Assembly (NCBI RefSeq): GCF_006770265.1
Contig: NZ_CP017194.1
Coordinates: forward strand, 1,984,001-2,048,000
Direction of reading: 5' to 3'
DNA: 64,000 nucleotides
Source of the DNA: Lactococcus carnosus
Lineage (GTDB): Bacteria > Bacillota > Bacilli > Lactobacillales > Streptococcaceae
Shown here: positions 1,083 to 38,379 of the stretch, in pieces
Numbering within the stretch: position 1 is the first letter of the stretch
Layout: each line of letters starts with the position of its first letter
The notes under the pieces: model-generated
Databases searched by the model: none
What the model saw: only the letters and a program-made list of their open reading frames with translations
What the model was told of the DNA's origin: nothing
Translations under genes and position numbers: made by a program

Positions 1083-1086
1083 CTCA

Positions 1087-1914: not shown

Positions 1915-2786
1915 TATTTTTCTCCCCCAACTTTAGTTTGAATGAGTGATAGGATGATAATGATGATGCTGACCACAAAGGCCATAGCTGCCGCATAACC
2001 AAATTGCGGTGTAAACTTAAACATCAAGTTATAGATATATTGAGAAATCGTAGCTGTTGCATTAGCAGGGCCACCATTTGTGATATTTGCGATTTCATCG
2101 AACAATTGCAGTGTCCCGATTGTTGATGTGATAGAGGTAAATAGGATAATAGGTTTTAAGTTAGGAATGGTGATTTTGATCAGCTGATCCCATTTAGACG
2201 CACCATCGACCTCTGCAGCATCATAGATTTCAGAATCGATATTTTGCATACCAGATAAAAAGAAAATCATGTTATAGCCAGTCCAGCGCCAAGTAATAGA
2301 GATGATGATCAGTACCTTAGCCCAAAATGGATGTGTGATCCATTGAATCGGATCTGCAATCAAATGGAGTTTCATCAAGATCTCGTTGACAATCCCATCA
2401 TTGGCAAAGATTGACTTCATCACTAGCGAATAGGAAACGAGGGACGTAATACAAGGCAAGAAGATGGCTGTTCTAAAAAGTCCCTTGAACTTCAGCTTTT
2501 TATCATTCAAGAAATTTGAAATAATAATCGCTAAAAATAGCATAATTGGCACTTGAATAATCAAGTATAGCACCGTGTTTTTAAATGCTGTAATGAAGGT
2601 CTTATCTGATAAGAGGCGCTTGTAGTTTGCCAGACCATCAAAGGTCATATTCATCGGCGTTCCAGTTTGGAAACTTGTAATCAACCCAAAGACCATGGGT
2701 ACAAAGACAAGTAAGGTAATCATGACTACTGGAATTACCAAGAACCCGTTTCCGTTTCTTAATGGATTTTTTATTTTTTTCATCAT
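1914..2786 (-). CDS. Carbohydrate ABC transporter permease (MalF/LacF type)
   Basis: The other half of the CUT1 sugar channel, 290 residues and about six membrane segments. The EAA motif reads DAAEVDGASKWDQLIKITIP around residue 190-210. It starts with two consecutive ATG codons after GGAG; the first is used here, the second would shorten the protein by one residue. It lies 79 bases downstream of the binding-protein gene and overlaps the next permease gene by one base. Same inferred role in galactoside import as its neighbours. Confidence 0.9.
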   Translation of the reverse strand: MMKKIKNPLRNGNGFLVIPVVMITLLVFVPMVFGLITSFQTGTPMNMTFDGLANYKRLLSDKTFITAFKNTVLYLIIQVPIMLFLAIIISNFLNDKKLKFKGLFRTAIFLPCITSLVSYSLVMKSIFANDGIVNEILMKLHLIADPIQWITHPFWAKVLIIISITWRWTGYNMIFFLSGMQNIDSEIYDAAEVDGASKWDQLIKITIPNLKPIILFTSITSTIGTLQLFDEIANITNGGPANATATISQYIYNLMFKFTPQFGYAAAMAFVVSIIIIILSLIQTKVGGEK

Positions 2787-2865
2787 CTATCTCCAATAAT
2801 TTTTTCAATAACAAAGGCTACGTAATCACTTACTTAGCCTTTTAACAATATGAGATTTTTATCGC

Positions 2866-4152
2866 TTATTGAATCTCAGATTCAACACGTTTTTGTGCAT
2901 CTTTTAAGGCGTCGTTGATGTCTTTTCCTTTAACAACTTGTTGTAAGTACTCTGCCATAATTGATTCGATTTGGTAGGTATTTTGACCATAGTTTACTTG
3001 TGGAATTTGAGTTGTCCAAGTCGCAAAGTCTTCTCTCACTTTTTGTCCACCATAGAACTCATCGCCAGTTTTGTAGGCTTCAGTATTGATGGCGCTCTTC
3101 ATCGTTGAAATGAGACCGATTTCTTTAGCTAATGTTGCCATTAGGTCTGTATTTGTTGCAAACGTTTTGTTCAAAAAGTCTTTGGCATCTTTTGTTGCAC
3201 CGCCTTTAAGGACGTACCATTGGGCACCACCTGAGTTAGATGCTTGTGCTTTACCCAGACCAGCTGGTAGTGCAGGTGTTTTAGCAATCCGCCATTTACC
3301 AGATTGATCTGCTTGTGCTTTGACTGTTGATGAGTACCAAGACCCTTGTGGGGTACTTGCAACAACACCGCCGTTGATCGCTTTAATACCAGTCGCCCAG
3401 TCAGATGTTTCAGTCACAAGTTTTTCTTTGAGTAAGGTAGACAACACGCCCATACCATAAGCTAAAGATTTGTTACCTGCAATAGAGACCTTGTTATCTT
3501 TGTCTGTGTACCACTCGCCAGCTTCTTGCATCATGATACGGACACGACCAAGGTCAGAAGGATTCAATTCAGTAATGTTATGACCTGTTTTAGCCTTAAC
3601 ATCTCGGGCAACTTTGATGTAATCATCCCATGTGAGATTATTCATTTGTTCTTGCGTGTAACCCGCTTCTGAAAGATAATCTGATCTGTAGAAGAGGCCA
3701 GTTACACCTGAGTCAAATGGCACACCATAGATTTTGTCACCAATTTTATTCACACCAAATTTGTAGGCAGCAAAATCTTTTTCTTTGACAATGTCCGTTA
3801 ACGGTTCAAAGGCATCTGCATTTGTTTTCAAGAATCCTTGAATTCGGTAGTCTTCAACCAATACGATATCTGGTAAACCATCTTTTGATCCCGACGTTAA
3901 TTGGGTTGTCAATTTTTGAACGATGTCATCTTGCGTCATTTCAACGATTTTCACTTTAACTTTTTTATTATCGTATACTTTGACAGCTTCTTCCATCGCT
4001 TTGATATTAAATGTTTTATCCCATGCCCATACTGTCACAGTATCAGATTTGTCTTTATTTGCTGCCTTATCCGATGACCCACACGCTGCAAGTAAGCCCA
4101 CAGCACCTACTGCCATAACAGCAGTTCCCAAAACTTTTTTCCAAGTTTTCAT
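2866..4152 (-). CDS. Sugar ABC transporter substrate-binding lipoprotein
   Basis: Extracellular solute-binding protein (family 1, like MsmE/MalE) of the ABC transporter, 428 residues. A typical lipoprotein signal ends in LLAAC with C24 as the lipidated cysteine, so the protein is tethered to the outer face of the membrane. The ATG at 4152 is chosen because AAGGAG precedes it; a TTG two codons upstream is not needed. It is the first gene of the operon binding protein-permease-permease-GH42. Upstream lie a cre-like site and a 15-base box shared with the lacZ promoter region. The ligand is not visible in the sequence; galactosides are inferred from the enzymes around it. Confidence 0.92.
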   Translation of the reverse strand: MKTWKKVLGTAVMAVGAVGLLAACGSSDKAANKDKSDTVTVWAWDKTFNIKAMEEAVKVYDNKKVKVKIVEMTQDDIVQKLTTQLTSGSKDGLPDIVLVEDYRIQGFLKTNADAFEPLTDIVKEKDFAAYKFGVNKIGDKIYGVPFDSGVTGLFYRSDYLSEAGYTQEQMNNLTWDDYIKVARDVKAKTGHNITELNPSDLGRVRIMMQEAGEWYTDKDNKVSIAGNKSLAYGMGVLSTLLKEKLVTETSDWATGIKAINGGVVASTPQGSWYSSTVKAQADQSGKWRIAKTPALPAGLGKAQASNSGGAQWYVLKGGATKDAKDFLNKTFATNTDLMATLAKEIGLISTMKSAINTEAYKTGDEFYGGQKVREDFATWTTQIPQVNYGQNTYQIESIMAEYLQQVVKGKDINDALKDAQKRVESEIQ

Positions 4153-4532
4153 AATCAAGTCTCCTTGTAATTTTTTTTATTTCTTCTATAGATTAATCTT
4201 AACACACTAAGAAAGCGCTTACTTCATCTTTTTTATCTTTTATTTAACTTTTTGTGACATTATGCTAATTAATTGTTTCATTACTTTTAATATTGAATTC
4301 GTTACTTAATACAGGCTTACCTAAGTAAGTATACCTGAGTGCCTACTGTCACACTAAGCGCATCATTGTAAGTGAATAAACAAAGCCACCAACCGGTCAG
4401 TCGATGGCTTTTCCTCAATTCACTATCTAGCATTGGGCCATTAGCTAGCTAGTCTCTCGCCTCAAGATTTTAACAACTATCACATTATTTTATTTTTATG
4501 TGATATCCTTCACCTAGGATAAAGTTTAGCGA
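4153..4532 (-). promoter_or_regulatory. Control region of the sugar ABC operon: cre site plus box shared with lacZ
   Basis: A 380-base gap between lacZ and the binding-protein gene. On the minus strand it holds a cre-like site (4210-4223, AGTAAGCGCTTTCT) and, 19 bases further upstream, the 15-base box TTTAACTTTTTGTGA (4243-4257, plus-strand reading). The identical box sits at 7671-7685 in front of lacZ, also just upstream of a cre site. The likely reading is CcpA repression plus a common specific regulator for both transcription units. No clear -35/-10 pair could be fixed. Nothing else was recognised from 4258 to 4380. Confidence 0.6.
4382..4411 (-). terminator. Weak candidate terminator after lacZ
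   Basis: AAAGCCA (4382-4388) pairs with TGGCTTT (4405-4411) around a 16-base loop that itself can pair (ACCGGT). The T-tract on the minus strand is poor (GTTTATT), so read-through from lacZ into the ABC operon is possible. Confidence 0.4.
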
Positions 4533-7500
4533 TTAGAGTGGTGAAATAAGAAATTGATAGATGAGGTCTTTTGCTGAATCAATGGTATAGTCTGCTAATA
4601 CAGGACTGCCCCATGAGTCATCGCCACCTACACCCATTTGTTGCCCGATAATATTGACATGCGTATAGTTAAAAGGTGGTAATTCAAATTGATGTTGTGC
4701 GTTTTCGAATTCAAAGGGTGAGGCAGGCAAGACAGCATGCTCAAATGCTTGACCAGTATAACTGAATTTAAGTCCTTGCCCCTGCTGGTTGGCAACCGTT
4801 ACCCAACGGGTTGCCATATGGTTACCACATTCTTGTGGTACCAAATAAGGTGTTGTGTTTGCCTCCACTGTCGTCTCATAGATCCCCAGTTTGGCACCAT
4901 CAGATCGATCAATATAATTTTCAGCTTCACCCTTCCCATAATAAGCGACTTGGTCAAATTCACTTAAGAGTTTAAAGTTTAAGCCTAGGACCGGTAATTC
5001 AGGTAGACCAGCCTTACCATGATAGTGCACATCAACCAAAATAGCACCGTCTGCTTTGATTGTGTAAGTCACCTCAGTAGTCGTCTCGATTATCGCTAAA
5101 TGATAGGCATAGCTAAACTGATACCCAGCCGGTGTTTCGATGATATCCGAGGCTACTTCGAGTTCTCCAAAACTAGCTACCGCCTCTTGCCCAAGCGTTG
5201 CAGCAAACCAGGCAGCATTTCGTCGCTCATGGCCATTCCCGCGATCATTATCTGTGGTTGCCCGCCAGTAATATGGTTTTGGTGGTGTGGTAATTAACTC
5301 TTTTCCACCATATTTTAAAGAGACAATCCCACCGGATAGTTTTGAAAAGATGACGCTAAAGTCGGAACCATGCACGCCGATATTAACATCCCCATAGACG
5401 ACTGTCATGCTAGTAGGCGGGAGTAGGCTAGGCATGATTTTTTCCTTGATTACTGCTTGAGCAAAGGCAACTTCATGACCTGCTTCTGCCCAAATCGTTG
5501 CTGCTTTCAAGCTGAAACTAATCAATACAACGACTTCTTCCCTCACATCTGATAGGTCTCCATAGTCTAGGGTAATGGTTTGGCTATCACCAGGTGCAAC
5601 CGCTACTGATAGGTTTTGTTTCCGCCAGATATGACCATCTTTTAGTAGGGTCATGTCGCAAGCAAAGTCACTTGTGGACACAAACAGATGATCATTTTTG
5701 ATGTGTAGCGACGTGCCCTGAATCGTCATGCTGATATTTTGGTATAGATATTTCACTTCTTGTGCCTTAGGAGAGATGGTTCTATCAGCAAATACGATCC
5801 CATTTCCTGAAAAATTATAATCTGTCACACGGTCATTGAAGTCGCCACCATAAGATAAGACTTCTTTGCCATTTGGTAATCTGCGATACAAGGCTTGATC
5901 GCCATAATCCCAGATAAAGCCACCTTGATACATGGGATAAGCATCAGCTAGATCAGTGTACTTGCGCATACCACCAAGTGAGTTACCCATGGCGTGCATA
6001 TACTCACAGGAAATGTAAGGTTTTTCTGGATCATTTGCTAAATAGGTCTCTATTTCAGCCGCTTTAGCATACATGCGACTCTCCATATCACTCGTCGCAT
6101 CGTAATCCCGATTCCAAAAGACACCTTCATAATGGACTAAACGAGAGGGATCCTCACGTCTAAAATAGTCACTCATGTCTTGAATCACTTGACCTGCATA
6201 AGATTCATTACCACATGACCAAATCAGAATAGCGGGATGATTTTTGTCACGCGCAAGCATCGACTCCGCCCGGTCCATCACCGCACCTGCCCATGTTTTA
6301 TCATTACCCGGCACGTTCCATGACGGCTCACATGCCCCCATCTTTTGCCATGAGCCATGAGATTCCAAGTTAGCTTCATCTATGAGATAAATACCGTATC
6401 TATCACAAAGTTTATACCAGAGTGATTGGTTTGGATAATGACTTGTTCTGACTGCGTTTAGATTATGTTGTTTTAAAAATCTGATATCCCAAAGCATGTC
6501 TGCTTCGGTAATTGCCCGGCCAGTTCTAGCCGAAAACTCATGGCGGTTGATGCCTTTAAAAACAAGCCGCTTGCCATTTAAGGTCATCAGCTTATTTTTT
6601 AACTCAAACTTACGGAAGCCAACTTGTGTTTTTGCTGTCTCAACCAAACGACCAGCCTTTGAAATAGCAACAAATAAGGTATATAAATTTGGGACTTCTG
6701 CCGACCAAAGCGCCACATCAGCTACAGACAAAGATAGGCTAAGTTTAGCATCGGCTGCTTGTGGGTCAGTTTGAGCTATGGTTTCCCCGGCGCGTGTTAA
6801 GCGCAAAGTAACTTGCGTGTCATAATCCCCTTCCAAATCCAAGTCTACAGTTAGGACTGCTGACTTAAAATCCGATGTTAAATCAGTTTTAACAAACAAA
6901 TCGCGGACATGGCTAGCTGGTTTTGCATACAGGTAGACCTCTCGAAAAATACCAGAAAAGCGCCAAAAATCCTGATCCTCTAGATAACTAGCCGAAGAGA
7001 AGCGAAAGACTTGTACAGCTAATTTATTCTCACCAGCCTGCAAATAATCTGTTAGCTCAAATTCACTGGGTGTAAAAGAGTCTTCTGCATAGCCAATAAA
7101 TTGACCGTTTAGCCAAACATAAAAAGCGGTCTCAACACCTTGAAAGGAAATGAATGTTGGCTTGTTAGCCAACTCTTTGCCCACCTCAAAGGTCTTGACA
7201 TAACTCCCAACTGGATTATAGTGGGTTGAAATATGAGGGGGTCTGAGCGCTTCGGCGCCATCCCAGGGATACATGGTATTGACATAATGGGGATGACCAA
7301 ATTTACCATCGCCTTGCAGCTGAATATGACCAGGCACCTTAATATGATCAAATCCAGATGTATCGTAGGTGATAGTTTCAAATCCTACAGGTCTTAAGGC
7401 AACATTTTCTGCATAATGAAATTGCCAAGTGCCATTCAGAGACTGAGTCAACTTCATGGCATCACTAGCTGTATCCTCATCTGCTTCATAATATGTGTGA

Positions 7501-26360: not shown

Positions 26361-27197
26361 TTAAAAAGCTGGGATCAAGGTTGCGCTATGTTCTTTTTCT
26401 AAGAATTCACGAACTGTTTGACTTGTCATTGCCTTTTTTAGTGCCTTGATTTTATCTGATTTCTCATTATCTTCTCGTGCAACAACTTGAATGGCAAAGC
26501 GATCATCGATCTTCTTTTCTAAAAATAGGGCGTCAGATGGTTTTAATCCCAGTTTAGCGATATAGGTCGGGTAGTTATAAACAAGCGCTACCCCAGGCTC
26601 ACTATAAGCCTCTGATAGATTAAGTAGGTCTACTTGTAACCACTCTAGATGTTTTGGATTGGCCGTCACATCTTTTATCGTCCCATTAGCCCCAACACCA
26701 GCAGTTAAGGTGATTAAGTTTTGTTCAGCAAGAATTGCTAACGCGCGACCTTGATTTGATGGGTCGTTTGGTATCGCTACCTTACTCCCATCAGGAATCT
26801 TGTCAATGGCTTTGTATTCCTTAGAATAGAAACCGACCTTAGCGTTATATATTGGTTGGATAGCCACTAGTTTCGCTTGTTTTTCTTTATTATATTTCAT
26901 CATATAAGGTTTGTGCTCGGCAAAACTGGCATCAGCTTCTCCGCTTGAAACCATGTCATTATAGGCAACATTATCAGTGACTTGAACAAGTTTGATATCC
27001 CAACCATCAGCTTTAGCGACCTTAGCCGCTAGCTTAACCACATCTGTCATCGGTGTCGTCTGACTGGCAACGGTAATCACCTTATCAGACTTATCGCCAC
27101 TACTTTTACTGCTGGTAGCTTTGTCCTTACTTGCCCCACAAGCAGCCAAAGAAAGGCCTAACCCTGCTACTGCGACTGCTACAACCCATTTTTTCAT
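26361..27197 (-). CDS. metQ: Methionine ABC transporter binding lipoprotein MetQ
   Basis: NlpA-family lipoprotein (278 residues), lipidated at C20 of SLAACG, that binds L- or D-methionine outside the membrane and delivers it to MetNI. Family motifs seen: DASFAEHKPYMM, VAIPNDPSNQGRALAIL, and VALVYNYPTYIAK. ATG after GGGAG. It follows metI after about 95 bases, so it is likely in the same transcript. Confidence 0.92.
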   Translation of the reverse strand: MKKWVVAVAVAGLGLSLAACGASKDKATSSKSSGDKSDKVITVASQTTPMTDVVKLAAKVAKADGWDIKLVQVTDNVAYNDMVSSGEADASFAEHKPYMMKYNKEKQAKLVAIQPIYNAKVGFYSKEYKAIDKIPDGSKVAIPNDPSNQGRALAILAEQNLITLTAGVGANGTIKDVTANPKHLEWLQVDLLNLSEAYSEPGVALVYNYPTYIAKLGLKPSDALFLEKKIDDRFAIQVVAREDNEKSDKIKALKKAMTSQTVREFLEKEHSATLIPAF

Positions 27198-27293
27198 TTT
27201 AAAACTCCCATTCTTGTTTATTATTTATATATACTTGAGCATACTAGCTTATTTTATAGACTAGAATGCTATAGCGTTACTTTACTATCTGGA

Positions 27294-27965
27294 TCACTTG
27301 CGTTTATCTAATTTGTAAGCCACCTGATTGCCTATCATCTGAATGATGAAAACAAGAAAGATCATAATCGCAATAGCAAGTCCCATAATACCGTATTGAT
27401 AACTTTGATAGCCGTATATGAGCGCAAAACTGCCAATACCGCCACCACCAATGATGCCCATAACGGTCGAGTAGGAGACGAGACTGACGACTGCTGTCGT
27501 ATACCCCAATACTAAGCCACTCCTAGCCTCAGCCAATAAAAAATGCCAGATATATTGCCACTTCGTCGCACCTAATGCACTAGCTAGCTCTCTAGTTGCG
27601 ACAGGGACATCAAGTAGTACCTGCTCGACTAATCTTGCAAAGATGACAATCCCGATAAGACTTAAGGAAAACGAGGCTGGATAAGGACCAAAGGCTCTGC
27701 CCAACAAAAAACGCGTCAGGGGAATTAAAGTGATAACAAACAGCAAATAAGGAAATGATCTAACCACCGTCACGATGAAATTAAAGACCCAATACCTGAT
27801 AGTACGCTGCCCCCGTATCTGTGGATTGGCATCAAACATGGCAATCCCTAAAGGCAAACCAATCAGCAAACAGCTCGTCATGGCAATGCCCATCATGATA
27901 CCAGTTTCTTTAAGTGCTAGTATCAGCTCTGGCAAGTAGTACTGAATCGATGTTATGAAGCTCAT
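27294..27965 (-). CDS. metI: Methionine ABC transporter permease MetI
   Basis: 223-residue permease with about five membrane segments, the channel of the methionine importer. The EAA-type motif RELASALGATKWQYIWHFLLAEAR and the SYSTVMGIIGGGGIGSFALIYGY stretch are typical for MetI. Its ATG overlaps the metN stop by four bases. Confidence 0.93.
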   Translation of the reverse strand: MSFITSIQYYLPELILALKETGIMMGIAMTSCLLIGLPLGIAMFDANPQIRGQRTIRYWVFNFIVTVVRSFPYLLFVITLIPLTRFLLGRAFGPYPASFSLSLIGIVIFARLVEQVLLDVPVATRELASALGATKWQYIWHFLLAEARSGLVLGYTTAVVSLVSYSTVMGIIGGGGIGSFALIYGYQSYQYGIMGLAIAIMIFLVFIIQMIGNQVAYKLDKRK

Positions 27966-28684
27966 CTATCAAGCCTCCTTTGAACTTTTTCCAGATAGGA
28001 CATGGTAGCTTCGGTTGCCAGTTGCGGCTGATTGTCGACTGTTCCCAGTAAGTGACCCGCTTCTAGGACGAGCACACGCTCACAAAGTTGCTTGACAGTT
28101 GCCAAGTCATGACTGACAAAAAAAATCGTAATGCCAAACGTGTCATGGCTGTCCTTTAGTAAGCGCAAGATAGCTGCAGTATTTTCCTCATCTAGCGAGC
28201 TAGTTGCTTCATCGCATAATAAAATCTCGGGCTGCCTGACTAGAGCCCTAGCAATCGCCACCCGTTGCTGTTCACCACCAGATAAATCAGCAGGATAAGC
28301 ATCCGCCTTCTCCCCCATCCCAACAAAGGAAAGTAAACTTGCAACACGGTCCGTCTCTTTTTTACCGACTAACCTCAAGGGTAGGGCGACATTTTGCGCA
28401 ACCGTCTTATTGGCTAACAAGTTATAGTGTTGAAAGACCATGCCGATTTTTGCTTTATATTGGGCCATCTGTTTGCTGCTTAACTGATCCGTCGACTGAC
28501 CATCAACTACGATCTGACCACTTGTTGGTGTCTCCATCAGGTTTATCAGTTTTAACAAGGTCGATTTACCAGACCCACTTTTACCAACAATCCCTAGAAT
28601 CTCGTTTTTAGCAACCGAAAAGGACAGGTCATCTAATGCCAGATGATTGGCATACTGTTTGCATAAATGCTTTACTTCAATCAT
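27962..28684 (-). CDS. metN: Methionine ABC transporter ATPase MetN
   Basis: ABC ATPase (240 residues) with Walker A GKSGSGKST near residue 34, signature LSGGEQQRV, Walker B ILLCDEATSSLD and the H-loop SHD. It powers MetI. MetN proteins usually reach about 340 residues with a C-terminal ACT-like regulatory domain; this one ends after the ATPase domain, so methionine trans-inhibition through that domain would be lost. First gene of metNIQ, after GAGGAC. Confidence 0.9.
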   Translation of the reverse strand: MIEVKHLCKQYANHLALDDLSFSVAKNEILGIVGKSGSGKSTLLKLINLMETPTSGQIVVDGQSTDQLSSKQMAQYKAKIGMVFQHYNLLANKTVAQNVALPLRLVGKKETDRVASLLSFVGMGEKADAYPADLSGGEQQRVAIARALVRQPEILLCDEATSSLDEENTAAILRLLKDSHDTFGITIFFVSHDLATVKQLCERVLVLEAGHLLGTVDNQPQLATEATMSYLEKVQRRLDR

Positions 28685-29005: not shown

Positions 29006-31168
29006 TCACTTATTGACGACCTTAACCGGAATTGTAAACTCTTGATACTTGCCTGAACTATTTGTTACCGCCACAGTTATGGGATACACTCCTGTAACTG
29101 CTGTATTGACCTGATTATCTTTCACCGTAACTGAAGGTATAGTCGTTGTGCCATCACCTGAAGTATTAGTAAACTGTAGATAGGTTAAGGGGTTGAAGTT
29201 TGATCCTTGTGCAATTTCAATGTCTGCTGTTTGATTTTGGATGCTCCCAAATATACTGCGATATGGCGTAATCACCATATGCTGTACAGTTGCTTTTTTA
29301 TCAGCACCTCCCTCAACATAAAAACCAAGTTGATCTGTTTTTACAGTAGGTCCACCAATGTTATCTGGTCGGTAATAAAAGACTTGAGTGATCGTTTTTT
29401 CACCATCATTAACAAAGACTTCTATTGAGGATTCATCAACTAATGCCGTCAATTTAAGTTTACCTGTATTTGGGATAAAGGTATTTGTGTGATCCCGACC
29501 CGCGGCTAAACTATCTTTATCACCTATTTGCAAACTATTGACATAGACAAGTTGGGGGCCAAAATCATAGCCGACAAATAATTTACGGTCAAATCCATCT
29601 GTTCCTCTGACATACATCCCTAAGGCAGTCGGTTTTGTTGCCTCATCCCAAGTAAATTCTGATTCAATCTTATATGTTGTCCCCTTATAATTGGTCACTA
29701 GTGCTGCATTAGCATCATGCATATCCCCTGTTAAGACAGTCCCTTTATCTGGTATCACGGTGCCTTTGTTTAAGGCTGGAATAACTGTTTTTTCTCCATT
29801 TGCTTGATCAAGTTCGGGGATTGGGGCTTGCATCAATTTATAGCCACCGTCATATTTACTATCTGCAACTAATGTTAGCTCTCTGGGTATCGTCATGTGG
29901 CTATACCATGGTGTCGTTTTCTGTAAATCAGTCCACTTCCAATTGCTCTCCCAACTCAGCATGATACGTCTATCTCCAGTATTACCAAATGTCACACCTG
30001 CATAAAAGTCCTCCCCATAATCTAACCAATTAGGCTTTGATAAGGTCTTTTCTGTCGCGGGTGTCCAGGCACCTTTGGCATTCATATCACCAATCATATA
30101 TTGCATACCGGACCCCGAAGCGTAGGCATGGTCTTGAACGCTCATCGTAAGCACCCATTTAGTCTCAGTGCTATCTTTAACTGTCATCGGAATTAGCTCT
30201 GGACATTCCCATACCTCAACACCACTATCATGTTGTCGTTGTATGGCAGAGGTGTAGGTCCAATCTATTAGGTTCTCTGATTTAAAAATCAGTGCTTGTT
30301 GACCTGCTACGACAACCATCAGCCACTGGCCATGTGCTTGATCATAGACAACCTTTGGATCACGGAAGTCTTTTGCATCAATACCAGGCAAACCTGAAAT
30401 AGCTGTCACTGGGATAATAGCTTTTGGAGACTTCTGATTAGCTAGCCCAGCCATATTATCTGCTACAGACTTTGCCCCATCAAATTGCTTAAATGTTTGG
30501 CCCCCATCCGTGCTGTATGCAAGGTGTTGCTCCTGTACCTCACTCATACCAAACCATGATCCCATGCCACCTTCACCACCGTCATCCCAGCGTGTCGGCA
30601 TTTGAAAACTACTCGTATAATAAGCAAGGAGTGTATTTTTCCCTAAACCGCTCTTATTTTCCTTGTCTAATACAGTTGAACCACTGAAAATATATTTCTT
30701 ACCATTGCCACCATTCCAATCCGTGCGAGGTTGACCTAAATAACGAACTTGTCCATTTTTACCATCCTTTGTAAACTGGCCTGTCGTATTTTTAAAGGTA
30801 AAATCCATGTCAGCTTGCTTATCAAGCATGGGGATTGCAACAGCTTGTTCTTGCCAGTTAATTAAATCATGACTTGTGGCATGGCCCCATGACATATCTC
30901 CCCAACTATTACCATTAGGATTATATTGATAATACATGTGGTAGGTATTCGTCGTATCATCATAGACTAAGCCATTCGGATCATTCAACCAGTTCTTTGC
31001 AGCTGAATAGTGATATTGATTTCTAAATAATTCGTTGTATTGCCAACCGACTTGATTGGCAGAACTAGCGGCCTCAGCAGCAGCTGGCTTGACTAATGCA
31101 AATCCTGTCCCAACAACAAGACCTGCCATTAATACCTTACATCCCTTACGCAATAAATCTACTTTCAT
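29006..31168 (-). CDS. Secreted GH32 fructanase (levanase/inulinase-like)
   Basis: 720-residue exoenzyme with signal peptide (residues 1 to about 33). The GH32 beta-propeller shows the nucleophile D63 in WLNDPNG, the FRDPKV transition-state motif and the WECPEL acid/base motif, then the GH32 C-terminal beta-sandwich and a terminal Ig-like domain of about 80 residues. It should release fructose from levan, inulin or sucrose outside the cell. No LPXTG anchor. The ATG at 31168 follows AAGGAGG. It lies downstream of the lev PTS, as sacC does in B. subtilis, but behind a terminator and with its own cre site. Confidence 0.93.
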   Translation of the reverse strand: MKVDLLRKGCKVLMAGLVVGTGFALVKPAAAEAASSANQVGWQYNELFRNQYHYSAAKNWLNDPNGLVYDDTTNTYHMYYQYNPNGNSWGDMSWGHATSHDLINWQEQAVAIPMLDKQADMDFTFKNTTGQFTKDGKNGQVRYLGQPRTDWNGGNGKKYIFSGSTVLDKENKSGLGKNTLLAYYTSSFQMPTRWDDGGEGGMGSWFGMSEVQEQHLAYSTDGGQTFKQFDGAKSVADNMAGLANQKSPKAIIPVTAISGLPGIDAKDFRDPKVVYDQAHGQWLMVVVAGQQALIFKSENLIDWTYTSAIQRQHDSGVEVWECPELIPMTVKDSTETKWVLTMSVQDHAYASGSGMQYMIGDMNAKGAWTPATEKTLSKPNWLDYGEDFYAGVTFGNTGDRRIMLSWESNWKWTDLQKTTPWYSHMTIPRELTLVADSKYDGGYKLMQAPIPELDQANGEKTVIPALNKGTVIPDKGTVLTGDMHDANAALVTNYKGTTYKIESEFTWDEATKPTALGMYVRGTDGFDRKLFVGYDFGPQLVYVNSLQIGDKDSLAAGRDHTNTFIPNTGKLKLTALVDESSIEVFVNDGEKTITQVFYYRPDNIGGPTVKTDQLGFYVEGGADKKATVQHMVITPYRSIFGSIQNQTADIEIAQGSNFNPLTYLQFTNTSGDGTTTIPSVTVKDNQVNTAVTGVYPITVAVTNSSGKYQEFTIPVKVVNK

Positions 31169-31183
31169 GCCATCCTCCTTTTT

Positions 31184-31197
31184 ATAAAGCGCTTTCA
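31184..31197 (-). promoter_or_regulatory. cre site in the fructanase leader
   Basis: ATAAAGCGCTTTCA, close to the cre consensus, lies only about seven bases upstream of the AAGGAGG ribosome site, a position suited to CcpA roadblock repression. Confidence 0.75.
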
Positions 31198-31256
31198 TTT
31201 TATGCTTATATAATAGACGTTAACTGACCTAACACCGATTACATGTTTTAAAAATA

Positions 31257-31284
31257 GCGTTGCGACCATAGCAGTCAGCAACGC
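31257..31284 (-). terminator. Terminator between levG and the fructanase gene
   Basis: GCGTTGC (31257-31263) / GCAACGC (31278-31284) followed on the minus strand by TATTTTTAAAA. A moderate stem, so partial read-through is possible. Confidence 0.7.
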
Positions 31285-31316
31285 CATTAATAGCTATATA
31301 AGATTCGGATAGTCGC

Positions 31317-32141
31317 TTATCCTAATACACCACCAGCATAACCTAGGATACCAACGGCAAAGATCACGATGATAATCAATAGTGGATTCACACCTTTTTT
31401 GAGTAACCAAGCGACAAACAAGGTCAAGCCAAGTGCTAACATACCAGGCATGATGCTATCTAATACATTTTGAACGGATTGGATTTTCACCTTACCAGCA
31501 GCATCCTTCATTTTAGTTGCTTGTAAGACGATATTGATATTTGTCCATTTGCTGATCAAAGCACCCATGACAAACAACCCAACGATTGAGGCACCTTCTG
31601 TCAATTTCTTGATCCGGCCGCCAGCCATATCTTTGATTATTTCTAGGCCTTTTTCATAGCCATAGAAGAGACCGAAATATTTGACTGTCAGGCGTAAAGC
31701 ATTAATCAAGAAGAAGAAGAGGAGCGGTCCTGCTAGTGATCCTGTCAAGGCTAGAGAAGCACCTAACGCTGCAAATACTGGACGTGCTGTGCCCCAGAAA
31801 ATAGGATCCCCAACACCGGCCATTGGTCCCATCAAACCAATTTTCATGGCTTGAATTGCTGAACCGTCGATATCTCTACCTTTTGACTTTTCTTCTTCCA
31901 TGGCAGCTGTCACACCGAAAATTGGTGCTGTCAACCAGGGTTGTGTATTAAACCATTCTAAGTGACGTGCTAGTGCATCATCACGTTCTGGACCTGGTGG
32001 GTAGATTTTTTTCAAGGCTGGAATCATGACATAACAGAACCCTAGCGATTGGACACGTTCAAAGTTGAAAGACCCGAGTAGGAAATTTGAACGGAGAAAC
32101 ATACTTGTTAATTCTTTTTTAGTTAATAATTTTTCACTCAT
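31317..32141 (-). CDS. levG: PTS mannose/fructose/sorbose family IID component
   Basis: 274-residue IID membrane protein (ManZ/LevG family). Seen: the N-terminal LTKKELTSMFLRSNFLLGSFNFERVQSLGF, the GLMGPMAGVGDPIFWGTARP loop and a hydrophobic C-terminus. Together with IIC it forms the sugar channel. Distal gene of the levDEFG unit. Fructose as substrate is inferred from LevR and the GH32 enzyme; mannose-class systems often take mannose and glucose too. Confidence 0.9.
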   Translation of the reverse strand: MSEKLLTKKELTSMFLRSNFLLGSFNFERVQSLGFCYVMIPALKKIYPPGPERDDALARHLEWFNTQPWLTAPIFGVTAAMEEEKSKGRDIDGSAIQAMKIGLMGPMAGVGDPIFWGTARPVFAALGASLALTGSLAGPLLFFFLINALRLTVKYFGLFYGYEKGLEIIKDMAGGRIKKLTEGASIVGLFVMGALISKWTNINIVLQATKMKDAAGKVKIQSVQNVLDSIMPGMLALGLTLFVAWLLKKGVNPLLIIIVIFAVGILGYAGGVLG

Positions 32142-32152
32142 TTTATTTCCCC

Positions 32153-32947
32153 CTATGCGTCTAAGTCATCATCGTCATCATCAAACACGACACCCGCTGG
32201 TGTAACAGCCGTTTGTGGTTGATTATTGTATTTTAATTGTAGGTAGATCAATGCTGCGATTAAGCCTAAGGCACCAAAGCCAACAAGGTTGAAGTTGGTA
32301 AAGGCTGCAAATAGGAAACCTGCGTACATGAACGGTTTCAAGTAAGGGACATCCATCATGTTAATCACCATAGCATACCCAACAACAACGATGATACCAC
32401 CACCGATTTGAAGACCTCTTGTGATGACTTCTGGAATAGAACTTAGGAAATGTTGTACAGCAGTTGCAGAGATTAAGCAAATAATCAAGGTTGGAATCAT
32501 GACACGCAGGGCCTGCAAGCTCATGGCTAGCAAGTGGGCACGTTCAATCCCTTTGTAATTGCCTTTTTTGGCCATATCGTCAGCTTTATGAATAAAAAAT
32601 ACAGTAATCGTTCTAACAAAAATTGTCAAAGCTTGACCAGCTGCTGCAAGGGGAACTGCAATCGCAATCCCTTGACCAATTCCTTGGTGTGAATTAATCA
32701 CAAGAATTGTGGAGATAACTGAGGCGATTGCTGTATCAGGTGCCATAGCAAGCCCAACGTTCATCCAGCCCAAAGCCATCATCTCTAGTGTCCCACCGAG
32801 GATAATCCCAGTTGGAATATCTCCTAAAACAATCCCGACTAATGTACAGGCAACCAATGGGCGATGTGTTTGTGCTTCATCAACTACTGATCCAATACCA
32901 GTAATTGCCGCAACAATTAGTAATAATACAATTTGAATGACACTCAT
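32153..32947 (-). CDS. levF: PTS mannose/fructose/sorbose family IIC component
   Basis: 264-residue IIC membrane protein (ManY/LevF family) with the typical GTLEMMALGWMNVGLAMAPDTAIASV stretch and about seven hydrophobic segments. The C-terminus ends in an acidic run of aspartates. It starts 45 bases after the IIB gene and ends 11 bases before the IID gene. Confidence 0.9.
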   Translation of the reverse strand: MSVIQIVLLLIVAAITGIGSVVDEAQTHRPLVACTLVGIVLGDIPTGIILGGTLEMMALGWMNVGLAMAPDTAIASVISTILVINSHQGIGQGIAIAVPLAAAGQALTIFVRTITVFFIHKADDMAKKGNYKGIERAHLLAMSLQALRVMIPTLIICLISATAVQHFLSSIPEVITRGLQIGGGIIVVVGYAMVINMMDVPYLKPFMYAGFLFAAFTNFNLVGFGALGLIAALIYLQLKYNNQPQTAVTPAGVVFDDDDDDLDA

Positions 32948-32992
32948 TTTTTTCCTCCTTCAAATGGAAAACATTGACAACTAGTGATGATC

Positions 32993-33484
32993 TCAGTCTT
33001 TCAAAGCACCCTCTAGAATGTCATTGAAGTCCTGTGATGTATCGCCTGGTAACTGACGCAACTCGTTTTTCAGTCCCAGTTCTTTTAATTTTCTAAAGGC
33101 TGCAATGTCTGCTTCAGTAACAGAAACAGATTTGGTAATTTGTTTGCGTTCAACATCAAAGCGCATACCACCAACATTGACTTCTTTCAAATCCACACCA
33201 CCTTCGACAAGTCTAACGATGTCTGCTGGATTCTCAAATAACAGCATAGCTGTCGTCGTTGCATATCTAGGTGACTTGTAGGCACGAATCATCTTATCGA
33301 CTGATACAGCACTCGCCGCAACATTGGCTGGTGCAACGGATAAAACTAATGTCTTACGCATTTCATCTGCTGCAACTGAATCACTGACAATGATAATGCG
33401 GTCGATTGGGCGAAGTTTTACCCATTTAGTTAGGACTTGTCCATGGATAAAACGGTCATCAATTCTTGCTAGTTCAATTTTCAT
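32993..33484 (-). CDS. levE: PTS mannose/fructose/sorbose family IIB component
   Basis: 163-residue cytoplasmic IIB phosphocarrier. The phosphohistidine is H14 in RIDDRFIHGQV. It transfers phosphate from the IIA protein to the sugar. Its ATG overlaps the IIA stop by four bases (ATGA), so the two are coupled. In B. subtilis the corresponding IIB also phosphorylates LevR to shut the operon off. Confidence 0.92.
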   Translation of the reverse strand: MKIELARIDDRFIHGQVLTKWVKLRPIDRIIIVSDSVAADEMRKTLVLSVAPANVAASAVSVDKMIRAYKSPRYATTTAMLLFENPADIVRLVEGGVDLKEVNVGGMRFDVERKQITKSVSVTEADIAAFRKLKELGLKNELRQLPGDTSQDFNDILEGALKD

Positions 33485-33924
33485 AATAAATCATCCTCTT
33501 CATCATCTATAGGGTCTGTGGTCTTAGCTGCGCTAATGACTTCCGAGAAGATTTTAAAGCCTTCTTGGTTGATTAGTTTTAACTGTTGCTTAAGCGCATC
33601 TAAGTCACTGAATTCTTTAATTGCTGCGATTTCGAGTAGCATTGGTAAGTTAACACCTGTCACAACATCTGCTAGTGGATTATTGAACACCAGTTGCACT
33701 GCTGAGTTATAAGGTGTGCCGCCAAACACGTCTACTAAAAATAAAATGGGTTCATCTGGAAACTTATCCATTACAGTTTGATACTTGTCTTGAAGTTGCG
33801 GAATCCCTTCACCTTTCAAAAACGGTACAGCGATAATTTTATCGTCATGACCAAAAATCATTTCAAAAGCATCTAGTAAGCCTGTTGACAATTGACCATG
33901 CCCACTGACAATAATTGCTGTCAT
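33481..33924 (-). CDS. levD: PTS mannose/fructose/sorbose family IIA component
   Basis: 147-residue IIA phosphocarrier; the phosphohistidine is H9 in IIVSGHGQLSTG, and FLVDVFGGTPYNSA is the other family motif. The ATG at 33924 follows GAGGAG; an upstream extension of the frame covers the promoter and is rejected. First gene of the operon, about 40 bases behind a sigma-54 promoter. Confidence 0.92.
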   Translation of the reverse strand: MTAIIVSGHGQLSTGLLDAFEMIFGHDDKIIAVPFLKGEGIPQLQDKYQTVMDKFPDEPILFLVDVFGGTPYNSAVQLVFNNPLADVVTGVNLPMLLEIAAIKEFSDLDALKQQLKLINQEGFKIFSEVISAAKTTDPIDDEEDDLL

Positions 33925-33962
33925 ACTTTTTCTCCTCTTCTTTTTCTTTACACTTATATAAG

Positions 33963-33978
33963 AGCAAGAAGTGTGCCA
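33963..33978 (-). promoter_or_regulatory. Sigma-54 (-24/-12) promoter of the lev PTS operon
   Basis: TGGCACACTTCTTGCT on the minus strand fits the sigma-54 consensus TGGCAC-N5-TTGCW at every defined base. It lies 39 bases before the levD ATG. LevR and RpoN, the two proteins such a promoter needs, are encoded directly upstream. Confidence 0.93.
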
Positions 33979-34026
33979 AACAGTGTTTTTTAGCAAAATT
34001 ATTTTTAAACCGCCGTTTTGTAAGGG

Positions 34027-34120
34027 GTTTCAAAAACAAAAAAAGAGGGAATCTCTCAAAAGAAACACTCTTTAAAACAGTTGACAAAATATTGAAACAC
34101 TTTTTTTACTTATGAAACAC
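34027..34120 (-). promoter_or_regulatory. Candidate LevR upstream activating sequence
   Basis: GTGTTTC (GAAACAC on the plus strand) occurs three times at 34062-34068, 34094-34100 and 34114-34120, with an inverted GTTTC core at 34028-34032. The set is about 85-155 bases upstream of the -24/-12 promoter, the usual place for enhancer binding; the last copy is inside the 3' end of levR. Assignment to LevR is inference. Confidence 0.55.
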
Positions 34121-36911
34121 TTGTTGCCTCAGCAAGTATTTCACAGATGAAGAGTTTTTCTCCTTGAGATAAACGCAGGTTGAGGCCATCCTCCATCGTT
34201 AATAGTGTTTTTGATACGATCGGTAGCAAGGCAAGCGTGGGCACACTTGCTGTATCCTCATAGGCTAGGGCGTCTTCCTTAATCACACGCTCAAAGGCAA
34301 AGGCACTGTGAATAATCAATTTAATCAGCGTTGCATTCTGAAAATTCATCTGACATTCCTGCTGAACTTGATCTGTCCATTTTAACAAGAAATCCAACAT
34401 CAATCTCGGATTCAAATAGACAAGGTGGGTCTCAAGCATATCCGCACATAAATCCCTGATGACATAGTTTTGGCTTTTATTGTCAACCTCACTCATCTCT
34501 CCCTTAGTCAAAATCTGGGTCAGCATATTCGTGCCACTTCCTTCGATCAACTTTTCAAGTGAGATATAGGGTGCTTCAATTTTCGGGTTTTTGGTACCAA
34601 CACTTGCCAACACCTGATAGTTGGCTAAAATTTTTGGCATCTCTTCTTTGATTTTTAAAGCCGATAAGGTCAAGACACGAACATCCTCATCTGTCGTCCG
34701 CTCAACAATATCATTAAGTAAGGAAGCCACTTTCTTAGCAGTGCCAGAACCCGTCATACAGATCGACACGATTGCTTTTGGCCGACCTTTAGAGGTCTTT
34801 TGCGCACGGACTGCTGCTAAAAAGTCGCGTTTAACTGAATCATAGACATTCATCAGCGTTCTATCCGTATAGGCTGCTTTTCGGACGGCATCTAAGACCA
34901 TCACTGTCGTCACATTCTGGATAATCCTGACCTCTATGCCACTTGCTTTGACTAGCTTGGGCTCAATCATTGACAAGGATCCCATATCGACTAATAATAA
35001 GACACCTTTACCCATATTCAACTTTTTCACTTTGTCGACAACTGCTTCAAACATCTCTTGAGGCGTCATAGCCAGTGACATATCAAGTGAGTCTATTTGA
35101 GCAACGCCTAACAATTCTGTGACGACATTAACCATCGAGGTTGCTGTACTATTACCGTGAGCAGCGACTAGAATACCTATTTTTTGATCCGTACTTTCTG
35201 TTTCCATATTGACAAGCAGCATGGCCAAATAAGCAACTTCTATATCCGGTAGACTATGATGGAAGGTGTTAAACACCTCGACTTTAAAGCGTTCAGCCAC
35301 TTGATAAGCCAACCCATGGTCTTTTTTAAAGTGTTCAATCTCCTGCTCGACTAATAGGTTGACTTTTTCTCCACGCGCAAAATAAGCATCGATGTGCATG
35401 GCAAAAAAATAAACAAACCGTCTATCAAATTTGACGCCCATTTCTGCTTCAGCAATCCCTTTTAAGTCAGTAACAAAGTCAACAATCGATTTGTCAACAA
35501 AGTTTAGCAGATTTAGGGTACTATCATAATTTTTAACATATTTTTTCAGATATAACTGCAACTCATCGAGCATGGTCTGTTTGATCCGCGTATGAGATAA
35601 TCCCTCATCTTCCAGGACAGCCATCTTTTTATCAAGCGCATCATAGATGTTGTAATCCGTTGACGCCGCAGGTGCTATAGCTATTTTTTCAGGATGAATC
35701 ACTGTCACGACATCAACATATTTTGAAATCGTCATGGCGCGAGCTAAGTTTTCACGACTGCTCATCCAGTCTTCTCGAATTTCCTCTGGCAGACTACGAA
35801 TATCGATATCTACTTCCTCAAAACGATGAATACTTTTCAAAAATGCCTGTGCACAAACGAGCTGAATCATTGATTTTAACTGACCGACATTACCAGAAGT
35901 CGTCGCATGCACAAGCGCATTAATCACATCGATCGAAATGCGGATTGTTTTCTTGATGCGCTTGGCTTCCTGACCAAATAAAAAGGTTGTCAATTCAACA
36001 CGTTCCTCGATTGAGCGCTCGCTCAAGGAAGGAATTTGAATCGTCATCGGAATCCGTCTGACAAAGGTCTTTAATAAGGCCGACTCTGGGTTTTCCGTCG
36101 TCGCACAAATGATGAGGACTTTACTATGTCGTTTAACCCCACTCTCTCCCAATCGGTTAAATGTCCCATTATCTATAAAATAAAAAAGCATTTCTTGGCC
36201 TTCTGGCGGGAGTCGATGTACCTCATCTAGTAGTAAAATACCGCCATCTGCCTTTTCAACTAAGCCCTCACGATCACTTTCTGCCCCTGTGAATGCCCCT
36301 TTGGTATAGCCAAACAATTGACTCATCAGCAGCTGCGGATTATTATAGTAATCTGCACAGTTAAAACTCTTAAAGGGGGCATCTTCTGCTAGTAACCCCT
36401 CATATTGGGAGTACTCATAGGTTTTTTCCGCAAAAAAAGTCTTACCTGTACCAGTCTGACCCAGTAAGAGCATGTGTAAACCCGATGGGGGATAGTAAAC
36501 TGCTGCCTTAGCTTGGGAGATCACTTTTTTTAAGCTTGACTGGTAGCCAATGATTTGATCAAACGGATTTTTTGAGTGTGCAAGTGTCACATCGGCATTG
36601 ACTTCTGACTTGTCTTGATCAGAGCCGATGATCTCAGCCACAGTTTGGATTTCCGTCACATCTTGTAACGCTTTATCTAATAGTGCCTCCATGCCTTCCT
36701 TAGGTAGAAAACGCACTGGATAGGTGGTCACCTTGATTACGCGACCATCTCGCACTAATTTATTCAATTCTAGACTTGTATTGGCCCGACTAATTGCTAA
36801 TGCCTTAGCAAGTTCAAGCGCAGGTGTACCTTGCATTTCCTCTAGATCATTTATAGTCTTATCAAACCATAGCTTACTTAAGGCTTGGTAGACACGGTCG
36901 ATTCTGAGCAT
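34110..36911 (-). CDS. levR: LevR-type sigma-54-dependent PTS-regulated activator
   Basis: 933-residue enhancer-binding protein, full length for LevR/ManR. An N-terminal helix-turn-helix (residues about 25-65) is followed by the AAA+ domain: Walker A GQTGTGKT (151-158), the sigma-54-contacting GAFTGA (205-210) and Walker B GILLLDE (224-230). Then come a PRD (about 450-560), a IIA-Man-like domain (from about 570, with ILVAAHGNSTATSMV), a IIB-like stretch (VSICMTGSGTAKKVA) and a C-terminal PRD. HPr/IIB phosphorylation of the PRDs should couple activity to lev PTS flux. It is adjacent to its target operon and divergent from rpoN. Confidence 0.95.
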   Translation of the reverse strand: MLRIDRVYQALSKLWFDKTINDLEEMQGTPALELAKALAISRANTSLELNKLVRDGRVIKVTTYPVRFLPKEGMEALLDKALQDVTEIQTVAEIIGSDQDKSEVNADVTLAHSKNPFDQIIGYQSSLKKVISQAKAAVYYPPSGLHMLLLGQTGTGKTFFAEKTYEYSQYEGLLAEDAPFKSFNCADYYNNPQLLMSQLFGYTKGAFTGAESDREGLVEKADGGILLLDEVHRLPPEGQEMLFYFIDNGTFNRLGESGVKRHSKVLIICATTENPESALLKTFVRRIPMTIQIPSLSERSIEERVELTTFLFGQEAKRIKKTIRISIDVINALVHATTSGNVGQLKSMIQLVCAQAFLKSIHRFEEVDIDIRSLPEEIREDWMSSRENLARAMTISKYVDVVTVIHPEKIAIAPAASTDYNIYDALDKKMAVLEDEGLSHTRIKQTMLDELQLYLKKYVKNYDSTLNLLNFVDKSIVDFVTDLKGIAEAEMGVKFDRRFVYFFAMHIDAYFARGEKVNLLVEQEIEHFKKDHGLAYQVAERFKVEVFNTFHHSLPDIEVAYLAMLLVNMETESTDQKIGILVAAHGNSTATSMVNVVTELLGVAQIDSLDMSLAMTPQEMFEAVVDKVKKLNMGKGVLLLVDMGSLSMIEPKLVKASGIEVRIIQNVTTVMVLDAVRKAAYTDRTLMNVYDSVKRDFLAAVRAQKTSKGRPKAIVSICMTGSGTAKKVASLLNDIVERTTDEDVRVLTLSALKIKEEMPKILANYQVLASVGTKNPKIEAPYISLEKLIEGSGTNMLTQILTKGEMSEVDNKSQNYVIRDLCADMLETHLVYLNPRLMLDFLLKWTDQVQQECQMNFQNATLIKLIIHSAFAFERVIKEDALAYEDTASVPTLALLPIVSKTLLTMEDGLNLRLSQGEKLFICEILAEATSVS

Positions 36912-36942
36912 AACTCTCCTTTATTCCAAGCATGATACTCCT

Positions 36943-36996
36943 ATTATACATAAAATTCTAATTTTTATGAACTATCAATCAGGGATAGTGTATAAT
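36943..36996. promoter_or_regulatory. Overlapping divergent sigma-A promoters of levR and rpoN
   Basis: Minus strand: TTCATA (36966-36971), 17 bases, TATAAT (36943-36948) for levR. Plus strand: TATAAT (36991-36996) with a weak -35 TGAACT (36968-36973) for rpoN. The two -35 boxes share the same bases, so RNA polymerase should not sit on both at once. Confidence 0.7.
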
Positions 36997-37029
36997 GAAA
37001 TAATAAGACCAAATAGAAAGATAGTTACT

Positions 37030-38379
37030 ATGATAGTCAAACCCACTAACCAGTTAAAGCAGCAGCAATCACAAGCCCAAATCCAGAAACTTGCTATGAC
37101 CCAAAAGATGCAGCAATCACTTCATATCTTACAGGTCAACTCGACTGATTTAGTTGATTTTTTACGTGAGCAAGCACTGGATAATCCACTCATCACGATT
37201 AAGTTGACAGCTGATCATCCTGATGGTTCCAGCCTATCAACCCATGCCAATCAGCTATCCGAAGATAAGCATCAAGCCTTTTTAGCACAATTACCTGCTG
37301 AAAAAATCTCTTTATTTGATCACTTGATAGAGCAGATTCATTTAAACTACCGAGATACTTTTTTACGTACCCTCCTGCTCTATTTAGTGGGTTATATTGA
37401 TGCAAATGGCTATCTGACACTTTCAGTCGAGACTGCTGCTAGTCAAGCGGGCGCAACAGAGGTTGAGATGCTTGATGCCCTCACACTGTTACAGCAGTTA
37501 GAACCTGCGGGCATCGGTGCTAGAACCTTACAAGAGTGTCTCATGTTACAGACAGAGCGCGATAACCATGCACCTGATATTGCCTATCTACTGCTAGAAG
37601 AAAGCTTTGATCAACTCGTCAATCACCAATGGGAACCCATCAGTCAGCGCTACCAGATAAGTTTAAGCGATATACAAGTTATTTTTGACTATATCCAGAG
37701 TTTAACGCCTCGACCGGGCACTGCCTATAGCCTCCCCATGGCCCAGTTCATCAAACCTGATTTAGAGGTAACCCTGATGAATGGCAAGCTGACCCTTGGA
37801 TCAACCAGAGACTGGCAACCGCAAGTTAATTTTCAGCAAAAATACTATGATCGCTACAAACAAGTAGCCGATACCGAATTACAAGACTATTTAACCGCAC
37901 GTAAAGCCGAGTTTGACTGGTTAAAAGAAACCGTTGAAAAGCGTGGGGATACCATCCTGCGTGTGGGAGCTGAGATCCTCCATCGACAAGCCAACTTCTT
38001 TTATCAACAGACGCACCCTCTGATGCCGATGACCTTAAAAGAAATCGCAAAAGCCCTAGACTTACACGAATCGACAATCAGTCGGGCTGTCAACCAAAAA
38101 TATATGAGAACGCCATTCGGCATTTATGAGCTGAAATCATTTTTCACCCAGGGTATCTCACAGCATCAGACAGATGGCGGCAGTAACCCGATCTCAAACC
38201 AAGCAGTAAAAATGAAACTACAAGCCATTATTGATAATGAAAATAAGCAGCAACCACTCTCTGATCAAAAAATCGTGGACTTGCTTGACAAATCAGGGGT
38301 TAGCATTTCACGTCGCACAGTCGTCAAATACAGAGACAGCTTAGGTATCCCATCATCTAGTAAAAGAAAACGTTATTGA
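37030..38379 (+). CDS. rpoN: RNA polymerase sigma-54 factor RpoN (SigL)
   Basis: 449-residue sigma-54. Region I is a glutamine-rich start (NQLKQQQSQAQIQKLAMTQKMQQSLHILQ), followed by the core-binding domain (with PAGIGARTLQECLMLQ), the HTH region (TLKEIAKALDLHESTISRAVNQKYMRTPFG) and the RpoN box (SRRTVVKYR, about 427-435) that reads the -24 element. The ATG at 37030 is chosen over 36967 because the latter lies upstream of the TATAAT promoter and would add a non-conserved stretch; the ribosome site is weak (AGAAAG). Divergent from levR; the lev operon is its only visible target. Confidence 0.96.
   Translation: MIVKPTNQLKQQQSQAQIQKLAMTQKMQQSLHILQVNSTDLVDFLREQALDNPLITIKLTADHPDGSSLSTHANQLSEDKHQAFLAQLPAEKISLFDHLIEQIHLNYRDTFLRTLLLYLVGYIDANGYLTLSVETAASQAGATEVEMLDALTLLQQLEPAGIGARTLQECLMLQTERDNHAPDIAYLLLEESFDQLVNHQWEPISQRYQISLSDIQVIFDYIQSLTPRPGTAYSLPMAQFIKPDLEVTLMNGKLTLGSTRDWQPQVNFQQKYYDRYKQVADTELQDYLTARKAEFDWLKETVEKRGDTILRVGAEILHRQANFFYQQTHPLMPMTLKEIAKALDLHESTISRAVNQKYMRTPFGIYELKSFFTQGISQHQTDGGSNPISNQAVKMKLQAIIDNENKQQPLSDQKIVDLLDKSGVSISRRTVVKYRDSLGIPSSSKRKRY

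Follow-up and report, generated by a model that had tools for sequence, protein, structure and literature searches.

The window analysed here, a 64-kb stretch of Lactococcus carnosus (contig NZ_CP017194.1, positions 1,984,001 to 2,048,000), contains what is very probably a self-contained sigma-54/LevR module for fructan utilisation. In our reading its sigma factor, RpoN, is kept or lost together with the lev operon and has evolved under relaxed constraint because it has no other detectable client in the genome, and the module is old in the genus. The window is part of a single 2,156,377-base contig, and the genome is 99.99% complete. Four named relatives were identified through RpoN, in a search that may leave out records very close to the window; Lactococcus piscium DSM 6634 is the nearest of them (94% identity), which agrees with the Lactococcus-like host supposed in the sequence-only reading that preceded this work. 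According to the available part of PMC12281737, L. piscium has since been reassigned to Pseudolactococcus.

The module consists of the divergent neighbours rpoN (plus strand, 37030–38379) and levR (minus strand, 34110–36911), followed on the minus strand by a -24/-12 promoter, the EIIA, EIIB, EIIC and EIID genes of a mannose-class phosphotransferase system (PTS), and a gene of glycoside hydrolase family GH32. This is the gene set, and the lev-type order with GH32 behind the PTS, that the sequence-only reading had named, and strong domain matches support it. RpoN has 449 amino acids and all three Pfam domains above cut-off (DNA-binding 1.1e-58, core-binding 2e-44, activator-interaction 1.8e-13), with an RpoN-box-like SRRTVVKYR recognised by eye near its C-terminus. 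Its start in the list of open reading frames (ORFs), 36967, is too early; we adopted 37030, since the 21 codons that the listed start would add lie in a different frame in G045 (L. piscium) and overlap a conserved TATAAT. LevR is an enhancer-binding protein with PRD and EIIA-man domains, a Sigma54_activat match of 3.6e-41 and GAFTGA at residue 205. The PTS genes, all on the minus strand, are levD (EIIA, 33481–33924, PF03610 2.8e-24), where the listed start was again too early and was corrected to the ATG at 33924, levE (EIIB, 32993–33484, PF03830 6.2e-49), levF (EIIC, 32153–32947, PF03609 2.2e-73) and levG (EIID, 31317–32141, PF03613 9.4e-100). The GH32 gene (29006–31198, minus strand; Pfam GH32N 8.8e-70, GH32C 1.5e-18) encodes a predicted secreted fructanase of the exo-inulinase/levanase type: exo-inulinases are its top matches among solved structures, WLNDPNG, RDP and ECP motifs and a signal peptide were recognised by eye, and its C-terminal Ig-like region has a Pfam match under the cut-off.

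The -24/-12 promoter TGGCACACTTCTTGCT (33963–33978, minus strand) is the sole zero-mismatch match in the window, where 47 matches were found with two mismatches allowed, vs 36.4 expected. It ends 38 bases upstream of the EIIA ATG and is found at the same place in all five module-bearing members of the genus, with differences confined to the spacer, and these results confirm the consensus promoter that had been read directly upstream of levD. Likewise, TGGCA(C/T)N5TTGC is present ahead of EIIA in 11 of 11 other modules inspected. Three copies of AGTGTTTC (34062–34069, 34094–34101 and 34114–34121; span 34062–34121, minus strand), the last of them inside the 3′ end of levR, are putative upstream activating sites for LevR, and an inverted half-site of the same set, AAACACT (33982–33988, minus strand), lies three bases ahead of the -24 element. 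The three AGTGTTT copies and the half-site occur in all five genomes, and a count of four was reached in 0 of 2000 mononucleotide shuffles of each. AGTGTTT or its inverse is also present at seven of 11 other such promoters in Lactobacillales genomes and plasmids, with none in G517, G035, G036 or plasmid pLPCN-2. From this pattern, the repeats probably constitute a LevR enhancer. Pairs of AGTGTTT occur in five places in the genome, two of them at lev, and the control also gave five; therefore, a second LevR target is not indicated. Ahead of levR a vegetative promoter-like TTCATA-17-TATAAT (36943–36971, minus strand) matches at 10 of 12 positions in a scan that was overall at chance level (23 found, 25.4 expected). 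Ahead of rpoN there is a TATAAT -10-like element (36991–36996, plus strand) that is conserved in the five genomes and for which the promoter scan gave no matching -35.

The genome contains one RpoN gene and, as far as examined, one activator and one convincing promoter for it, which is the minimal regulon that the sequence-only reading had envisaged. A search of the genome with the PF00158 family returned LevR at 2.2e-42 and three further matches of only 27–31 bits; these were rejected as activators, since they are without GAFTGA and read as Clp ATPases. Exact TGGCACN5TTGC sites number four vs one for a reversed-pattern control, and three of the four are intragenic (by eye in a GDSL lipase, a sugar ABC permease and purL). 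The proposed genome-wide search for such sites and for other GAFTGA proteins thus returned a single intergenic exact site, the lev promoter, and LevR as the sole GAFTGA activator. When one mismatch is allowed there are 111 sites, of which a script processed 73: 30 that came with a locus (2 of them exact and 28 with one mismatch) and, from 70 others listed without a locus, the 43 that keep the GG and GC doublets. ORFs of 100 codons or more contain 69 of the 73; behind each of the remaining four, the next 100 bases include no ORF start, and there is no AGTGTTT in the context shown. No site with one mismatch or none precedes any of the three remaining mannose-class PTS loci, with ORFs listed for one of these loci only.

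RpoN matches above the cut-off occur in 11 of 335 Streptococcaceae genomes: seven belong to this genus (five intact copies and two broken ones), three to genus g8 and one to genus g4. Sigma-54 is thus rare in the family, and two of the 11 cases are remnants; the sequence-only reading had taken it to be absent from L. lactis and from well-known streptococci. A further 33 genomes, all of the large genus g10, have only sub-cut-off matches, and none in g10 is above it. One g10 genome, G187, has a LevR-like match (4.1e-53) and no RpoN match, and may hold an orphan activator. Within the genus, rpoN, levR and levDEFG are intact in the same five of 12 genomes, and the other seven have neither regulator intact; LevR matches occur once each, in exactly the five genomes with intact rpoN.

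An M20 peptidase flank is common to all 12 genus genomes. The module directly adjoins it in G000, G044, G045 and G048, and the copy in G040 is at a contig end. In G041, G042 and G049 the M20 gene is followed directly by a MATE gene with nothing between, and G050, a genome that is 70% complete, has other genes at the site. The block is cleanly absent from G043 though its close relative G040 has it: the two sequences align again from a point 97 bases past M20 in G043, which corresponds to 97 bases past the HAD gene, the last of the block, in G040. Two genomes, G046 and G047, retain a broken 3′ end of rpoN at the same site beside M20, with 63 open codons in G046 and a shorter, shifted stretch in G047. 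Candidate remnants of levR, the PTS or GH32 in these two genomes were rejected, as their tblastn matches are at chance level (E 0.06 or worse). An unrooted tree of five flanking proteins groups G000/G044/G045 (100), G046/G047 (100) and the rest (100), with partly weak support inside the rest. The simplest reading is one old presence in the genus followed by at least two or three losses, and the lack of the module in G041, G042 and G050 may be the ancestral state. The place formerly taken by the module in G046 (L112, 7650–9500) and G047 (L113, 3850–5700), next to the rpoN remnant, contains genes that read by eye as a TetR-like regulator and a flavodoxin-fold NAD(P)H oxidoreductase. Also by eye, phage-satellite-like genes (a repressor and a primase-like protein) lie beyond the module in G048 (L117, about 373–4998), and the G040 contig terminates beside M20 in a transposase-like ORF (L116, 12016–12621). 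The site has the look of a rearrangement hot spot.

RpoN also changes faster than its neighbours. Its ratio of nonsynonymous to synonymous substitution rates (dN/dS) is 0.120 vs G044, the top value among 15 genes (EIIA follows at 0.107, and the 14 genes other than RpoN have a median of about 0.04), and 0.168 vs G045, again the top value, here among 13 genes (GH32 follows at 0.108), where MetN (its match is a paralogue), MetI and MetQ (no match) were left aside. In the G040–G048 pair, RpoN has a dN/dS of 0.096 at a dS of 0.96, and LevR 0.044. For comparison, RpoN in one Enterococcus-like genus (n = 15 genomes) gave 0.034–0.048 in eight pairs with dS up to 1, and five further genomes gave no usable pair. 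RpoN of the genus is thus two- to threefold faster in the one divergence-matched pair. In this small sample the rate fits a sigma factor that has been relieved of most of its clients and on which purifying selection persists.

Alternatively, the entire cassette with its sigma factor could have reached the lineage by horizontal transfer of one mobile unit, and relatives may still be exchanging it at the site. We regard this as possible if rather unlikely. Most Streptococcaceae are without sigma-54, plasmids of Latilactobacillus curvatus, L. sakei and Lacticaseibacillus paracasei (pLPCN-2) that are typed as conjugative carry comparable units with an rpoN of their own, and the clean absence from G043 beside presence in G040 would fit such exchange. 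An RpoN tree of 59 rows recovers the genus as a single clade (100/100) and places it next to the f3 set (99/91), of which E. faecalis is a member; g8 is placed elsewhere and g4 falls inside the f3 set, so that the three Streptococcaceae genera are scattered; from the named rows, f3, f8 and the like would be Enterococcaceae, Vagococcaceae and similar families. However, in approximately unbiased (AU) tests neither a single Streptococcaceae clade (p 0.178) nor a genus outside the f3/f8 set (p 0.367) is rejected. An rpoN tree following the species tree had been named beforehand as the outcome that would speak against transfer, and the result is divided: the three genera do appear scattered, and their union in one clade stays compatible with the data. 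In the LevR tree the genus forms a branch to itself among lev-type LevRs from several families and from plasmids, several rows in both trees are on long branches, and no clear donor was obtained. The best-scoring outside RpoN is only 54% identical among 395 sampled Lactobacillales genomes. A foreign base composition was rejected, as the module is not distinct in this respect, and inspection by eye of the ORFs neighbouring the window copy gave no recognisable transposase or integrase. We also rejected a mosaic origin of EIIC/EIID, considered for the 92% identity of EIIC to g8; EIIC is simply conserved, because it is 80–83% identical even where LevR is 45–53%. Finally, the same M20-side site is used in both module-bearing lineages where it is visible, and a decayed rpoN lies there in a third. 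That the module moved as a unit is not shown: within the genus it is at one site with losses in several lineages, and the AU test does not reject a Streptococcaceae clade; such transfer into this genome is possible but unproven, and the module looks old inside the genus and repeatedly lost.

Several results weigh against a captive sigma factor in an old lev module. Sites with at most one mismatch are more than the reversed-pattern control predicts (111 vs 51), an excess that we cannot explain except by composition, and 38 of the 111 are outside the scripted set: 25 that break the GG or GC doublet, two in purL/metN and 11 others, lev itself among them. Three of the AGTGTTT pair places are elsewhere than lev, at control level. 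Because sigma-54 and its activators co-occur in nearly all genomes, as the accessible text of PMC3162934 has it, joint loss of rpoN and levR alone is unremarkable; the further point is the loss of the client operon as well. GH32 is absent from two of the five genus modules (G044, G048), and the terminator scan, which placed no terminator-like stem in the EIID–GH32 gap and one just 3′ of GH32, was at chance level (8 found, 7.0 expected). The dN/dS values come from a simple Nei–Gojobori count over few genomes, and EIIA and GH32 are raised too (0.10–0.11).

The mismatch excess and the sites outside the script are also what would be expected if RpoN were an ordinary alternative sigma factor that serves further off-consensus promoters and is near levR by chance. 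We consider this improbable: only one activator was found that could open any sigma-54 promoter, 69 of the 73 examined sites are intragenic, exact sites are as numerous in genus members without intact rpoN (2–9 per genome) as in those with it (3–7), with no excess, and among the 12 genus genomes intact rpoN never occurs without lev. That the module is decaying and non-functional in the window strain too, with fast RpoN change as loss of function, would agree with the raised dN/dS and with the losses in relatives but is very improbable, since all seven genes are open, dN/dS is far below 1, and the promoter, repeats and GAFTGA are intact.

We therefore return to the self-contained module, which by its testable features is the LevR/sigma-54 lev system. 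Divergent vegetative promoters would provide LevR and RpoN. LevR would bind the AGTGTTT repeats, about 85–145 bases upstream of the -24/-12 promoter, and drive open-complex formation by RpoN-RNA polymerase. Expression of levDEFG would then allow fructose import through the mannose-class PTS, and read-through would yield the secreted GH32 enzyme, which may release fructose from levan or inulin. PTS phosphorylation may in turn report fructose to LevR, with the EIIA-like domain activating and PRD2 inhibiting. LevR of the window has histidines at 585 and 868, close in position number to the regulatory histidines H585 and H869 of Bacillus subtilis LevR. For LevR-like regulators, phosphorylation by HPr activates and phosphorylation by EII inhibits, according to the portion of PMC8262876 available.

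The B. subtilis lev system comprises levR, levDEFG-sacC and sigL, and its sigma-54 gene is located elsewhere. It resembles the window in its LevR-type activator, -24/-12 promoter, mannose-class fructose PTS and terminal GH32 fructanase. The differences are that its sigma-54 gene is not beside the operon and serves several activators, whereas in the window rpoN is adjacent and there is one activator. The available text of PMC3162934 describes LevR control of lev and five reported activators for B. subtilis sigma-54, and gives Lactobacillus plantarum and Chlamydia trachomatis as precedents for one-activator systems, the former, like the window, with a single activator and a PTS client, there a mannose PTS. 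In Enterococcus faecalis the activators MptR, MpoR, MphR and LpoR similarly adjoin PTS operons, and MptR is LevR-like, but all four share one rpoN (PMC8262876, from the same portion). Linkage of rpoN and levR as such is not rare, because RpoN and a LevR-like gene lie within 15 kb of each other in at least nine other Lactobacillales genomes (G339, G343, G350, G356, G359, G363, G373, G459 and G468).

Plasmids provide further comparisons. Latilactobacillus curvatus ZHA1 and L. sakei p1_WK95 have modules in which GH32, PTS ABCD, levR and an rpoN of their own form one block, with a -24/-12 site before EIIA. Unlike the window, their rpoN product is 29% identical and its gene co-directional with levR, an extra scrK and a NosD-like gene are present, and the plasmids are typed as conjugative. 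Lacticaseibacillus paracasei p1CACC566 (L176, 10986–19861; typed mobilizable) shares the divergent activator/rpoN pair and the AGTGTTT repeats with a -24/-12 site before the PTS, but its client operon is PTS-dgaE-aldolase without a fructanase. In the same species, pLPCN-2 (typed conjugative) holds an activator, PTS, two glycoside hydrolases, rpoN and a ROK gene. Two Enterococcus plasmids have levR and PTS without rpoN within the stretches viewed. On an Aerococcus tenax 592-kb record labelled as a plasmid (L180), rpoN adjoins a mannose-class PTS and has a very long branch in the RpoN tree.

The mechanism is known, and what is new is the lineage, Pseudolactococcus, and an apparently captive sigma factor that is being lost with its operon. 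A literature search, with most subscription papers outside it, found no earlier description of sigma-54/lev in Lactococcus piscium or Pseudolactococcus, and the words sigma, rpoN, mannose, GH32 and fructan do not appear in the available text of a genome paper on Pseudolactococcus laudensis. More generally, it is about an even call that sigma-54 can turn private and cassette-borne, with rpoN tied to one activator and one operon, its genome-wide duties gone, evolving faster and gained or lost with the operon, in Pseudolactococcus as well as, by a seemingly independent route, on conjugative plasmids of other lactic acid bacteria. Sigma factors are usually seen as shared global parts of transcription, and here one acts like an operon-specific regulator. 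Sister species without the module are natural knock-outs, which makes this a tractable system for asking what constrains a sigma-54 that reads a single promoter and whether cassettes can bring sigma-54 control to lineages without it.

Beside the module, a metNIQ methionine transporter lies between the MATE gene and GH32 (26361–28684 of the window); it is not at that place in G045 and forms another variable segment.

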